Part shown: piece after piece, positions 1,412-41,942 of the stretch
Layout of the letters: each line of letters opens with the position of its first letter
How positions within the stretch are numbered: position 1 is the first letter of the stretch
NCBI GenBank assembly: GCA_018816345.1
Contig: JAHIWG010000012.1
Coordinates: 1-64,000, forward strand
Length of the DNA stretch: 64,000 bases
Origin: Spirochaetota bacterium
GTDB lineage: Bacteria > Spirochaetota > Spirochaetia > Treponematales > UBA12059
Direction: 5' to 3'
The notes under the pieces: model-generated
What the model was told of the DNA's origin: nothing
Databases searched by the model: none
The model's input: the letters and a program-made list of their open reading frames with translations, nothing else
Position numbers and translations under genes: made by a program

Positions 1412-1549
1412 AGGCACAGAGACACGGAGAAGACGAGAAGAAAAAGGATAGGATAGTATTAGAGATGGCAGAAGCATGATTGAGCGCACGCTTCGTCTTC
1501 GATTCCATACAATTCCCACCTCATCTTCTCCGTGGCTCGGTGCGAGCCC
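1412..1549. repeat. Inverted-repeat (MITE-like) element copy A, gene-less
   Basis: Left arm GGCACAGAGACACGGAGAAGACGAGAAG (1413-1440), right arm CCTCATCTTCTCCGTGGCTCGGTGCGAG (1519-1546), about 22/28 complementary; shares arm sequence with copies at 6363, 16306, 18121. Confidence 0.8.
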
Positions 1550-6362: not shown

Positions 6363-6496
6363 GGCGCAGAGACGCGGAGATGATGGGAATTAGGAAAGTC
6401 TAATAGCGCCGGAAAGTTAAGGGAGGGGAGCGGATCAGCCATGAACCGCTCCCCTCCCGCGTACTTTACCTCATCGTCTCCGTGTCCCTGCGTTCG
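6363..6496. repeat. Inverted-repeat (MITE-like) element copy B, gene-less, with internal 13-bp perfect hairpin
   Basis: Left arm GGCGCAGAGACGCGGAGATGATGGG (6363-6387), right arm CCTCATCGTCTCCGTGTCCCTGCG (6469-6492); inner stem GGGAGGGGAGCGG (6421-6433)/CCGCTCCCCTCCC (6446-6458). Confidence 0.8.
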
Positions 6497-13579: not shown

Positions 13580-15348
13580 ACTCCATCCTTCGTTAGATAG
13601 TATCGGGCCCGCTCGACGATTCGCGGATCGAGCCCTAGGAGCGACGCTATGGCGAGCGCGTCGCTCTCGGAGCCCGAGCCGTCGTCGTCGACGACCTCGT
13701 ACCTCATATGCCTATTGATGCCGGCCAGGCGCTCCGATAGCTCCGCGCCCGCGACCGGCCCGGCCCCGCCCGTCCGTTCCAAGGCCGCGGCGGCCGCCGC
13801 CCTGTCCAGTCCCCTCATGCGCCTGTACTCGGCGCCCTCTATCCTGGCGACCCCGCGGAAATGCGTCGCGAAGAAGGCCCGGTCGCCGCCCGCGCCGCCT
13901 GCCACGGCCTCGTAGGCGCGCGCGTAGGACTCTACCACGGCCGAGAGCAGGGCCTCCGCCTCGTGGGAGCCCGTGGTCCTGGCCAGCTCGTCGAACGCGA
14001 CGAGCACCCGCCGGTCTCCCCGGTCTCCCCGGTCTCCCTGGTCTCCCGGCCCGCCGGGGCCCGCTCCCCCGGCCCCGGCAGCCATGAGGCGCCAGACTTC
14101 CAGGCCGAACCCCGACAGGCCCGCGAGCCGCTCGCCGGACAGCTCGCCCACGTACTCCACCCGGTCGTAGACGCTCGTCTCGAAGGTGCGCGCGGGTACG
14201 AAGAGCCCGGCCTGGGCCAGGAGCTGGAAGAAAAGCAGCGTCTTAAGCACGACGGTCTTGCCGCCCATATTCGAGCCGAACAGCACCACGGCTCCCGAAT
14301 CGAACTCGGCGCTCAAAGGCGAGTACTCGAGCCCCATGCCACGGCACTCGTCGGCGCACGGCACGAATCGAGCATCCACGAGCCTCGTAGCGCACGAGGA
14401 AAGCCGAGGCCGGCTCATGCCGAACGCCAAGGCCAGCTCGGCGCCGGCCCGCGCCCTATCGAGGCGCGTGGTCGCCGCCACCGCGGAGGCGAGAGCAGGC
14501 ATGGCCGCCGCCGCGAGCGCGGACAGGCGCGCGACTACCCGCTCCTCGGCGCGGCGCTCGTCGGCAAGGTAGCGCTCGCGCTCCGCCATCGCCTCGACGG
14601 CGCGCGGCGAAGGCAGGAGCCTGACCAGGTAGCGCGCGTCGTCGTAGGGCTCCGCGGCGTAGCGGCCCGCCGCGCCGCCCATGCGCCCGTCGGGGCCCTC
14701 CCCGGACAGCATGGCCCGAGCCGCGTCCTTGGGCGCCACGATGAACTCCCGCCCGTCGAACGATACCCCGAAGGCGAGGCGAGCCTCGGCCTCGGCCCTG
14801 ACGCGCTCCTCCGCGACGATAGCGTCGGCGGCCGCTATCCCGGCCCGCGCATCCGCGAGGCCGGGGTCGTAGCAGTCCGCCACGTAGAACGTCTCCGGGT
14901 CTGACCCGCCCCTATCCAGCTCGGACGCCAGCGAGCTAGCGGCGGAGCCCCGTTCGAGCGGGGACATGCCGAAGGCCGCGGACAGGCCCTCCCCGAGCGC
15001 CGAGACAGCGCCCTTATAATTAGCGATGAATTTCTTTATCTGGAATAGCTCCAGGACCTCGTACAGGGCCCTAGGCTCGAGCGTCAGCCTCGGCATGCGG
15101 CGGAGATGGTACGACACCCTGTCCCTAGCCAGCGAGTCGAGCGACTCGGGCGCGGCCTTATCCTCGCGCATGAGCCCAAGGACGGCCTCTATATCGTCGT
15201 ACCGGCCTTCGAGGAGCTCCGCGTCCGCGTACACGACCCGAGCCTCGCGCTCGTCCTTGCCCCAGGGCGTCAAGGGCGAGTAGCGGTCCCAGAAATCGTC
15301 GAGCTGGGCGAAGGACCAGGCCTCCGCGCACGGGGCGGCCAGCCTCAT
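13576..15348 (-). CDS. kamC: MutS-like ATPase, lysine 5,6-aminomutase reactivase ATPase KamC
   Basis: MutS-type Walker A VVLFGSNMGGKTVVLKTLLFFQLLAQAGLFVPA, Walker B RVLVAFDELARTTGSHEAEALL; position between kamD and kamB. Confidence 0.85.
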   Translation of the reverse strand: MRLAAPCAEAWSFAQLDDFWDRYSPLTPWGKDEREARVVYADAELLEGRYDDIEAVLGLMREDKAAPESLDSLARDRVSYHLRRMPRLTLEPRALYEVLELFQIKKFIANYKGAVSALGEGLSAAFGMSPLERGSAASSLASELDRGGSDPETFYVADCYDPGLADARAGIAAADAIVAEERVRAEAEARLAFGVSFDGREFIVAPKDAARAMLSGEGPDGRMGGAAGRYAAEPYDDARYLVRLLPSPRAVEAMAERERYLADERRAEERVVARLSALAAAAMPALASAVAATTRLDRARAGAELALAFGMSRPRLSSCATRLVDARFVPCADECRGMGLEYSPLSAEFDSGAVVLFGSNMGGKTVVLKTLLFFQLLAQAGLFVPARTFETSVYDRVEYVGELSGERLAGLSGFGLEVWRLMAAGAGGAGPGGPGDQGDRGDRGDRRVLVAFDELARTTGSHEAEALLSAVVESYARAYEAVAGGAGGDRAFFATHFRGVARIEGAEYRRMRGLDRAAAAAALERTGGAGPVAGAELSERLAGINRHMRYEVVDDDGSGSESDALAIASLLGLDPRIVERARYYLTKDGV

Positions 15349-16271
15349 GCCGCCCGCCCTTCCGCGACCTCGTACGGGTTGTACGAGACGAGCGCGGCGA
15401 TGGAGTCGTCGGCGAGCCTCGAGGCGAACTCGGCGTCGCTAACGCCTCGGCACGCGACGACGAAGCCGCCGAACTCGATTCGCCGGGCGACGAGGAGCTC
15501 GCGCCCGCGCATGAAGGCCGACAGCTCCTGGTCGCTTAAGAACACCTTGGTAAAATCCTCGACGATGACCGAGGAGGCCCATCGGGGCAGCCTGGCGGCC
15601 GTCTCGGCGGTCAGCGCCCCCTCGAGCGCGTACTGGCCCGCGTCGCCGCCCAAGCCCGCTCCCGAGCCTCCGGCGCAGTCGAGCGGCGGATCGGCCACGG
15701 GAAGCCTGGCCAGCGTCGCCATGCGCCTCACGCGCGCGACGGCGCGCTCGAGCCCCGCCCCGTCGGCCCTGAGCGCGTAGACGAAGCGGGCGCCGGGGAT
15801 GGAGGCGGCCTGCGTGATCCTATTGATGGCCCCGTCGACCAGCACCGTGCCCGTGAGCCCCTCGTCGACTATGCGCCTGACGGCCCAGGCGACGAGGGAG
15901 TTGCCTTCCGGCCCGACGAGGGCGACCGTAGCCGCCCTACGCGCGCGCGCGACGCAGAGGCGCCCGAGGGCGCACGAGCCCGGCAGGACGTCGAGGATCT
16001 CGGGGGAGCAGGGCCGCGCGAAGCGCTCGGTCGTCACGACTACGTCGCCGGCGGCGACCGGCACAGCCGGCTTCCGCGCCCCGGACAGGAAATCCCTGGC
16101 CTCGCCGTCGTAGCCCACGGTCAGGAGGGCGGGCCCGGCCAGGCCCGCCTCGCGGGCGCCCCGCCGCGCGAGCTGGGCCGCCCGGTTCATGAGGGTAGTC
16201 TTGCCGCAGTGCTTTTCCGGCCCCGTCACGAACGTGACCCTCCCCAGGAAATCCCCCGCATTATCGATCAT
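15345..16271 (-). CDS. kamB: Lysine 5,6-aminomutase reactivase subunit KamB
   Basis: P-loop FVTGPEKHCGKTTLMNRAAQLA; translationally coupled to kamC (ATG/stop overlap); operon context. Confidence 0.8.
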   Translation of the reverse strand: MIDNAGDFLGRVTFVTGPEKHCGKTTLMNRAAQLARRGAREAGLAGPALLTVGYDGEARDFLSGARKPAVPVAAGDVVVTTERFARPCSPEILDVLPGSCALGRLCVARARRAATVALVGPEGNSLVAWAVRRIVDEGLTGTVLVDGAINRITQAASIPGARFVYALRADGAGLERAVARVRRMATLARLPVADPPLDCAGGSGAGLGGDAGQYALEGALTAETAARLPRWASSVIVEDFTKVFLSDQELSAFMRGRELLVARRIEFGGFVVACRGVSDAEFASRLADDSIAALVSYNPYEVAEGRAA

Positions 16272-16305: not shown

Positions 16306-16785
16306 GCACAGAGACACAGAGAAGAAGAAGAGCGATATTGGCCGTATCATAGCATCATCCTATAGATACCATTCTTTAAGTCTGTAGATTTGAAATTCAA
16401 GAGCAGCCCAGTATTCCAGCCTCCAAGCCGCATATACGATAAAAGCTGAGCCTTATGAATCGAGATGATTGTATCTACGCACTTCAGCTCGAGTGCTATC
16501 GAATTTTCTACAACCATATCCACTCTGAACGAACCCGAAAGTAGAGCGCCTTTATAGACGACAGGCAACTCCGCTTGACGGACGAACGACAAGCCGCTCT
16601 CTGCGAGTTCTAGGGATAGAGCCTCCTCGTAGATCGATTCGAGGAGGCCCGGCCCGAGCTCGCGATGTACGGATATCGCGCATCCGATGATCCTATCGCT
16701 CAGCATATCATGCTCCAACAGCTACTCCATCCTACCCATATTCTTCATATGCAAGGCTCTTCTCATCTTCTCTGTGTCTCTGTGC
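16306..16785. mobile_element. Inverted-repeat element copy C, carrying a GxxExxY gene between its arms (putative autonomous copy)
   Basis: Left arm GCACAGAGACACAGAGAAGAAGAAGAGC (16306-16333), right arm GCTCTTCTCATCTTCTCTGTGTCTCTGTGC (16756-16785), nearly perfect inverted repeats flanking the ORF 16347-16718. Confidence 0.72.
16347..16718 (-). CDS. GxxExxY protein (PD-(D/E)XK nuclease superfamily-like)
   Basis: Motif GLLESIY in ELGPGLLESIYEEAL; candidate active site FRVDMVVENSIALELKCVDTI (D...ExK) followed by HKAQLLSYMRLGGWNTGLLLNF. Confidence 0.9.
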   Translation of the reverse strand: MEHDMLSDRIIGCAISVHRELGPGLLESIYEEALSLELAESGLSFVRQAELPVVYKGALLSGSFRVDMVVENSIALELKCVDTIISIHKAQLLSYMRLGGWNTGLLLNFKSTDLKNGIYRMML

Positions 16786-16801: not shown

Positions 16802-18097
16802 TTACTTCTTCTTCCGGGGGGAGAAGGCGGTAGTGCCCCTCGCGGCGCGGACCAGGTTCTTGGGCTCCAGGGTCTTCTCGTCGCCCGACAGGAGCCTCGC
16901 GACGCCGCAGGTGGCGTTGAGCTGGGGCTCGTCGAAGCAGATGCGGCACTTGCCGCAGTCCTCGTGGTAGCCGTCCGGCTCGTCATACGTGGTTATCACG
17001 CCCTCGTAGTTGCGGAGTATGACGCGCTTGTCGTTGCTCGAGATCATGTAGTCGGGCATCACCGGGGTCTTGCCGCCGCCGCCGGGCGCGTCGATCACGA
17101 AGGTCGGCACCGCCATGCCGGAGGTGTGGCCGCGCAGGTTCTCGATGATCTCTATGCCCTTGCTCACCGTCGTGCGGAAGTGGCTGATGCCGCGGGATAG
17201 GTCGCACTGGTAGATATAGTACGGCTTGACGCGGATGGTCAGGAGCTTCTGCACGAGCTGCTTCATGAGCACCGGGCAGTCGTTGACATCGCGCAGGAGC
17301 ACGCTCTGGTTGCCCAGCTGGATGCCCGCGTCGGCGAGCTTGCGGCAGGCCTCGCGCGATTCCGCGGTGATCTCCTTGGGATGGTTGAAGTGCGTGTTGA
17401 CGTACAGCGGGTGGTACTTCTTGAGCATGCCCACGAGGTTCTCGGTGATGCGCTGGGGCATGACCACCGGCGTGCGGGTGCCGATGCGGATGATCTCCAC
17501 GTGCGGGATGGCGCGTATCTTCTTGATGATGCCCTCGAGCTTCTCGTCGGACAGTATCAGGGGGTCGCCGCCGGAGATGAGCACGTCGCGGATTATGGGC
17601 GTCTTCCTGATGTACTCGATGGCCGCGTCGATGTACTCCTCGTTCATGTTGGCGTCTTCCTCGCCGACGATGCGCCTGCGGGTGCAGTGGCGGCAATTCA
17701 TCGAGCAGATATGCGTGACGAGGAGGAGGACGCGGTCGGGATAGCGGTGCGTCAGGCCCGGGACGGGGCTATCGGAGTCCTCATGGAGGGGGTCGTCCTG
17801 GTCGCTCTCGTCGAAGTGGGTCTCCGGCAGGCGCGGGATGGCCTGGAGGCGGACCGGGCAGCCGGGGTTGGCCGGGTCAATCAGGGAGGCGTAGTACGGC
17901 GTTATGGCCATGCGGAAGACCTTGAGGACCTCGCTCACGTCGGCCTTGTCCTTCTCGGTCAGCGGCACGACCTTGGCCAGGGTCTCGACGTCCTTGATGT
18001 TGTTCTTCATCTGCCAGCGCCAGTCGTTCCACTGCTCCGGCGTCACGTCCTTGTACAGCGGGATGCGCGTGTAATCGTAAGTCGGGTACGTATGCAT
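16802..18097 (-). CDS. kamA: L-lysine 2,3-aminomutase (radical SAM)
   Basis: CSMNCRHCTRRR CxxxCxxC motif, DVLISGGDPLILSDEKLE, GMAVPTFVIDAPGGGGKTPVMPDY. Confidence 0.96.
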   Translation of the reverse strand: MHTYPTYDYTRIPLYKDVTPEQWNDWRWQMKNNIKDVETLAKVVPLTEKDKADVSEVLKVFRMAITPYYASLIDPANPGCPVRLQAIPRLPETHFDESDQDDPLHEDSDSPVPGLTHRYPDRVLLLVTHICSMNCRHCTRRRIVGEEDANMNEEYIDAAIEYIRKTPIIRDVLISGGDPLILSDEKLEGIIKKIRAIPHVEIIRIGTRTPVVMPQRITENLVGMLKKYHPLYVNTHFNHPKEITAESREACRKLADAGIQLGNQSVLLRDVNDCPVLMKQLVQKLLTIRVKPYYIYQCDLSRGISHFRTTVSKGIEIIENLRGHTSGMAVPTFVIDAPGGGGKTPVMPDYMISSNDKRVILRNYEGVITTYDEPDGYHEDCGKCRICFDEPQLNATCGVARLLSGDEKTLEPKNLVRAARGTTAFSPRKKK

Positions 18098-18120
18098 GAT
18101 CTGCCTCCTAAGATTTCCAA

Positions 18121-18227
18121 GCACAGAGAAGATGAGACGCAGAGAGTAGAATCCAAGATAGAGAACCTATGCTCGCTTTCCTTGGCAGCATTCCCTTCCT
18201 CCCTCATCCACTCCGCGTCTCTTTGCG
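18121..18227. repeat. Inverted-repeat (MITE-like) element copy D, gene-less, left arm with ~8-bp deletion
   Basis: Left GCACAGAGAAGATGAG (18121-18136), right CCTCATCCACTCCGCGTCTCTTTGCG (18202-18227); fills the kamA-kce gap. Confidence 0.7.

Positions 18228-41869: not shown

Positions 41870-41942
<73 letters not shown>

Follow-up and report, generated by a model that had tools for sequence, protein, structure and literature searches.

A GxxExxY gene and its inverted tandem-unit arms form one unit: a candidate REPIN/RAYT-like system with an unrelated enzyme

A gene for a 123-aa GxxExxY protein and the inverted arms that bracket it form one unit, a conclusion that is well supported by observations in the window (the whole 64-kb stretch of DNA that was analyzed) and in other bacterial genomes. 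We consider it probable that this unit represents a two-part system resembling REPIN/RAYT, built on an unrelated enzyme, in which the nuclease would spread or convert the arms by acting on them. The gene-bearing unit (positions 16306–16785, about 480 bp) is sited in the kamA–kamB gap of a lysine-fermentation operon (Table 1). The outer parts of its arms, spaced 434 nt apart, are 96% complementary over 23 nt, the full arms with their inner extensions span about 28–30 nt, and the GxxExxY gene is the sole substantial ORF between them. The preliminary description of this DNA was accurate on the position of arms and gene, to which the inner extensions are a small addition. Its placement of the unit between the kamA stop and the kamB start agrees with the profile matches of the operon neighbors (KamA, KamB, KamC, lysine 5,6-aminomutase alpha, KCE, and KDD, with the KamB, KamC, and KCE matches scoring under curated cut-offs). 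As had also been claimed, no transposase-like gene is present in the unit, where PF13366 and TIGR04256 are the only matches. An Rfam scan of the window detected no RNA family at the unit, its sole match being a tRNA at 41870–41942.

Table 1. Features of the gene-bearing unit, its flanking genes, and gene-less doublets in the window
Feature	Position	Strand	Remarks
Left arm, outer part	16306–16328		GCACAGAGACACAGAGAAGAAGA; 23 nt, inverted match to right arm
Right arm, outer part	16763–16785		TCATCTTCTCTGTGTCTCTGTGC; 23 nt
Left arm	16306–16333	+	Two tandem copies of the CACAGAGA unit and inner AAGAAGAAGAGC box; 16306 is the outer tip
Right arm	16756–16785	-	Inverted copy of left arm; reads GCACAGAGACACAGAGAAGATGAGAAGAGC from the outside in
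GxxExxY gene	16347–16718	-	123 aa, TTG start; predicted minimal PD-(D/E)XK nuclease by profile, predicted fold, and conserved residues
kamA (lysine 2,3-aminomutase)	16802–18124	-	Stop at 16802; flank for empty-site comparison
kamB-like gene	15345–16271	-	Other flank; start at 16271; NF052386 score under its cut-off
Gene-less doublet, family of the window's unit	1414–1543	.	GCACAGAGACACGGAGAAGACGAG ... CTCATCTTCTCCGTGGCTCGGTGC
Gene-less doublet, diverged type	6365–6492	.	CGCAGAGACGCGGAGATGATG ... CATCGTCTCCGTGTCCCTGCG
Decayed gene-less doublet	18121–18226	.	GCACAGAGAAGATGAGACGCAGAGAG ... CTCATCCACTCCGCGTCTCTTTGC; kamA–kce gap of the kam operon

The protein matches both TIGR04256 (GxxExxY; 138.5 bits, cut-off 35) and PF13366 (PDDEXK_3; 134.4 bits, cut-off 22) over its full length, and neither family model mentions a flanking repeat. 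Among 79 proteins, E27, D67, E77, and K79 are invariant and Q91 and Y95 near-invariant; this set of residues would be that expected of an active PD-(D/E)XK nuclease in the Cas4/lambda-exonuclease branch. A search by sequence for a relative of solved structure returned none that was convincing. Foldseek comparison of an AlphaFold2 model built from the 79-sequence alignment (pLDDT 96.2, pTM 0.88) gives as its top PDB match 4ic1 (SSO0001; TM 0.60), which we take to be the Cas4 of Sulfolobus, with lambda exonuclease next and a weak fold match to the catalytic domain of I-Bth0305I (rank 24, E 0.16). From this model the protein is predicted to be a minimal Cas4/lambda-exonuclease-like PD-(D/E)XK nuclease. 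It shares the E-D-ExK-QxxxY residue order of these enzymes; unlike them, it is much smaller and is encoded outside a CRISPR or phage recombination locus, and unlike Cas4 it has no cysteine in its invariant or near-invariant columns (no Fe–S set) and lies in a kam-operon context. Ratios of dN/dS indicate that the gene is under purifying selection, with values of about 0.05–0.12 for distant pairs where computable (dS is saturated or incomputable in many pairs) and of 0.40, from very few changes, for genomes G003 and G005. Two loci (L104 and L120) carry GxxExxY genes with one in-frame stop between well-kept arms (scores 26 and 30). A defense-system or phage gene was considered and rejected on the basis that PADLOC, PHROGs, and phage records all lacked a match; since, in addition, only 8 plasmid records contain a GxxExxY match, the family appears to be mainly chromosomal.

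Arms of this kind accompany GxxExxY genes well beyond the window. In a motif-free test, each locus was scored by the best ungapped inverted match between the 250 bp upstream and the 250 bp downstream of the gene. We used 80 loci from public genomes, 76 of them with usable flanks; these are the best 80 of at least 584 confirmed relatives, so the sample leans to close relatives of the query, and it includes a few near-duplicates or loci overlapping an earlier-fetched set. The taxa sampled include Spirochaetota, Bacteroidota, Planctomycetota, Verrucomicrobiota, Proteobacteria, Chloroflexi, Acidobacteria, Geobacteraceae, and Ignavibacteria, among others. Scores of at least 12 were obtained for 75% of the 76 loci and of at least 20 for 39.5%, a quarter scoring below 12. 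The corresponding values were 1.9% and 0% at shifted sites in the same loci (n = 572, unmatched for intergenic content), 1.3% and 0% when the downstream flank was reversed without complementing, and 7.5% and 0.4% when flanks from different loci were paired. The expectation in the preliminary description that homologs would generally have such arms is borne out by the difference between true and shifted sites. Most arms consist of tandem 7-to-9-bp units, mostly of one polarity, such as CACAGAG, CACGGAG, CGCAGAG, CGCAAAG, CGCCAAG, and CACCAAG. Hymenobacter polaris and Spirosoma oryzae, two cultivable holders of the gene, have short arms. No paper describing these repeats or their association with GxxExxY genes was found in the searchable open-access literature, subscription papers being outside the scope of this search, and the association is apparently undescribed so far.

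In the sequences compared, the arm unit tracks the clade of the protein and not the host. A tree of 120 proteins contains a 19-member GFLE clade, the remainder being of the GLLES type. Arms of the GFLE clade are built from "...GAT" units (ACAGGAT, ACAAAGAT, CACACGGAT) and those of the GLLES clade from "...RAG" units (CRCnRAG). As scored, this holds for 15/15 GFLE loci and 72/73 GLLES loci; the one exception by score, L127, appears to be an artifact of the scoring, and two Bacteroidaceae loci in the GLLES clade that were scored as undecided (L080 and L122) have CGCAGAT-type arms and are real exceptions. The agreement requires only 2 changes on the tree, which argues for co-inheritance of arm and enzyme and not for their repeated co-evolution. 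In G022, a genome with genes from both clades, every gene is flanked by the arms of its own clade, so arm type is not mere host background.

The same arms recur away from the gene. Genome-wide scans, which combined pattern searches with extracted stretches, revealed arm doublets without a gene, of about 90–210 bp and numbering from tens up to hundreds, in GxxExxY-bearing genomes. The genome of the window (G000; 3.8 Mb) has 1 GxxExxY gene and 33 matches to a 19-mer arm pattern with up to 3 mismatches, and the reversed pattern has 1 match, so the arms are not due to chance. These matches are mostly arranged as head-to-head pairs of roughly 100–210 bp that are gene-less and intergenic (e.g., between rpoB and rpoC). 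Genome G019 has 1 gene and 240 arm matches, with CACGGAG in most of those listed. Adjacent arms are head-to-head versus in the opposite order in ratios of 27:2 in G019, 17:0 in G006, and 10:0 in G014, and the shuffled count is 0. Doublets also contain an inner box, GGGAGG...AAGAGGGAGG in G019 and AAGATGAGG in G000 and G006, and in G019 and G000 the copies with the gene have similar boxes. The gene-flanking arms best match the gene-less arms of their own genome in G017, and in G000 too when its congener G006 is set aside, and the CACGGAG genomes (G001, G003, G005, G019) score high among themselves; some genome sets in this comparison have only 3–5 arms. A script pattern applied to 20 contigs of G003 recovered no paired arms.

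Doublets differ in their apparent history. Those of G006 include near-identical copies of 108–116 bp as well as nested or adjacent doublets, which suggests a recent burst of amplification. Two related doublets of 148 bp in the same genome (L251:11150–11297 and L258:4505–4652) have a quite different interior (GCGCGAGACTCGTAGCGCCGCAAGGGGGTTTGGGGG...) and are possibly a separate subfamily or a composite. Mutual correction of the two arms of one element is not supported as the main process in the homogeneous genomes G019 and G006, where partner arms resemble each other no more closely than they do arms from other doublets (own versus different-doublet scores of 20.5 and 22.1 in G019 and of 23.0 and 22.8 in G006). 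A dispersed repeat of another kind, about 90 bp long, occurs at L281:4498–4590 and at many sites in G014 and G021 (genus g8), its longer matches being roughly 83–91% identical.

Across the phylum, a GxxExxY match is found in 90/394 genomes. The gene is present in 20 of the 27 genomes with at least 5 CACRGAGNCACRGAG arms versus 70 of the 367 others (Fisher P = 5.5e-9, a value that ignores kinship among related genomes whose events are not independent; the counts were compiled by hand and the 20 include G026, whose gene match has a marginal E value). How often arms are abundant without the gene, a point on which the preliminary description had staked its proposal, tells in part against it: a few such genomes exist, with many arms and no gene recovered (G006, 64% complete; G242, 71%; G015, 96%), but overall the gene is enriched in arm-rich genomes. 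The co-occurrence is strong, not absolute. We had also predicted in advance that ACARGATNNACARGAT arms, the ACARGAT family, would be abundant only in genomes with a GFLE-type gene, and this was half borne out. Among 41 genomes, the two highest counts are in GFLE-gene holders (G020, 89; G022, 49), the third is in G015 (42), which belongs to the genus of the top holders and yielded no gene, and the GFLE-gene holders G013 and G014 have only 2 and 5 such arms.

Comparison of orthologous sites revealed the empty sites that had been proposed as a check. At the kam site, G003 and G005 hold the gene with CACGGAG arms, G000 holds it with CACAGAG arms, and G002 has a decayed copy; the site is empty in G007, where a 42-bp gap contains neither arms nor gene, and in G004. 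Nine doublet sites of G019 could be placed in its sister species G014, where 1 is empty, 2 have the same type, and 6 have inverted doublets of other units, read by eye as CGCCGAG, CGCGGAG, CGCAGAG, and CACNAAG. Doublet positions can, therefore, persist while the unit is replaced, and this replacement could reflect either in-place conversion or re-insertion at favored sites. Decay of G014 doublets through loss of a GLLES-type gene was rejected because most of these sites are occupied by doublets with a different unit. Target-site duplications were apparent neither at the kam site nor at the L281 sites, where divergence of the relatives precludes placing junctions exactly, and the sites compared yielded neither a clean junction nor a product of excision. 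Between G003:C122 and G005:C32, the kam-site element is 96.6% identical, the kamB side 86.5%, and the kamA side 93.3%; recent transfer of the element between these genomes is a suggestive reading that we did not adopt, as differing constraint could also explain the identities.

RAYT/REPIN systems provide the closest parallel in layout: one enzyme gene, or a few, has the repeat on either side, the same genome contains many inverted doublets that lack a gene, and there are several repeat flavors, every one paired with a particular enzyme (PMC3116915). GxxExxY genes are likewise flanked by a repeat that recurs as inverted gene-less doublets. Unlike the HuH Y1 tyrosine transposase of RAYT/REPIN, however, the GxxExxY enzyme is a predicted PD-(D/E)XK nuclease, and its arms consist of 7-to-9-bp units arrayed in tandem, the two arrays being inverted, in place of short palindromic REPs; because the defining enzyme differs, we do not file the system as a RAYT/REPIN member. 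The earlier suggestion that the nuclease and arms form one RAYT/REP-like unit with a different fold is in agreement with the arms of homologs, the empty sites, and the gene-less doublets. PD-(D/E)XK homing endonucleases are also small nucleases, and the GxxExxY protein may similarly help to copy its own DNA; unlike them, it is intergenic, with no intron or intein, and the arms that it presumably recognizes are carried along with the gene. A further parallel is the IVS/S23p element, an element of about 430 nt, described as selfish, with a small ORF between inverted repeats and, in Coxiella, tandem GACAGAT heptamers upstream of the S23p ORF (PMC4990558). GxxExxY units share the small ORF, the inverted repeats, and the tandem short units, and differ in being intergenic and in encoding an unrelated fold, whereas IVS elements lie in rRNA, encode a four-helix bundle, and are excised from RNA by RNase III. 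In six loci (L144, L146–L149, and L153, in G023, G020, G015, G024, and G026), TIGR02436/S23p-type four-helix-bundle genes lie between inverted arms; 6/11 TIGR02436 loci score at least 17 (no null was computed for this family), with units that are mostly GTGAGGG, GTGAATRG, GTAGCAGG, and GTGGACA. This hints that the inverted-array layout is common to two unrelated small proteins.

To account for these observations we propose, as the probable explanation stated at the outset, that the 480-bp unit and the gene-less inverted doublets belong to one dispersed repeat family, of which the unit is the copy with the gene. The nuclease would recognize its cognate arm, either in duplex form or as an extruded DNA hairpin, and would cut it; doublets could then be spread and homogenized in trans when the cut is repaired from a second copy or the extruded hairpin is copied. 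RAYTs have reportedly been proposed to spread REPINs in trans in a like manner. We advance more tentatively, as a possibility that we hold below even odds, that these elements constitute a separate and very widespread class of bacterial repeats in which a lone PD-(D/E)XK nuclease converts scattered intergenic sites in a sequence-specific way, the doublets of a whole genome switching unit in concert and in place.

As RNA, the doublets would form hairpins of very high stability (z -5.4 to -9.8), which makes a role at the RNA level, or a function for the host as hairpins, conceivable. In one such reading, the host maintains the doublets as RNA hairpins for mRNA stability, termination, or processing, they spread by other means, and GxxExxY is a cargo gene protected or regulated by the flanking hairpin. 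The intergenic location of the doublets, including that between rpoB and rpoC, and the conservation of their positions between sister species while units change are in keeping with it. Nevertheless, we regard it as unlikely, as it leaves unexplained why GxxExxY is the enclosed gene across phyla, why the arm unit tracks the protein clade, and why the gene is enriched in arm-rich genomes. It is less probable still that the nuclease works on RNA, cutting or protecting transcripts at the arm hairpins in a manner akin to RNase III excision of the 23S rRNA IVS with S23p ORFs: the layout does parallel that of IVS/S23p elements (PMC4990558), several TIGR02436 loci in relatives are also enclosed by inverted tandem-unit arms, and the gene is co-oriented with the kam operon, but the predicted fold and active site are closest to the DNA nucleases Cas4 and lambda exonuclease, and action on RNA by itself spreads no DNA copies. 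Terminal inverted repeats, presence or absence at orthologous sites, and short non-coding copies are also what would be seen if the doublets were MITEs of an unseen DDE or HuH transposon with GxxExxY as a captured passenger. This we consider very improbable: among the doublets and loci examined, none has a transposase between its arms, other arm pairs being short and gene-less; target-site duplications are likewise not apparent at junctions blurred by the divergence of relatives; the gene would need to have been captured repeatedly, for two clades and in many phyla; and arrays of 8-bp units are unusual as the ends of such elements.

We retain the REPIN/RAYT-like reading, in which the nuclease and its arms act together, as the preferred one. 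GxxExxY is a named and functionally blank family in many bacterial phyla, and the adjacent arms offer a candidate target for it. If our proposal is true, it would account for dispersed intergenic repeats of the CACAGAG, CACGGAG, and CGCCGAG types, would add a second and independently evolved counterpart of REPIN/RAYT, and would provide a ready natural set of candidate enzyme–substrate pairs with differing specificity.
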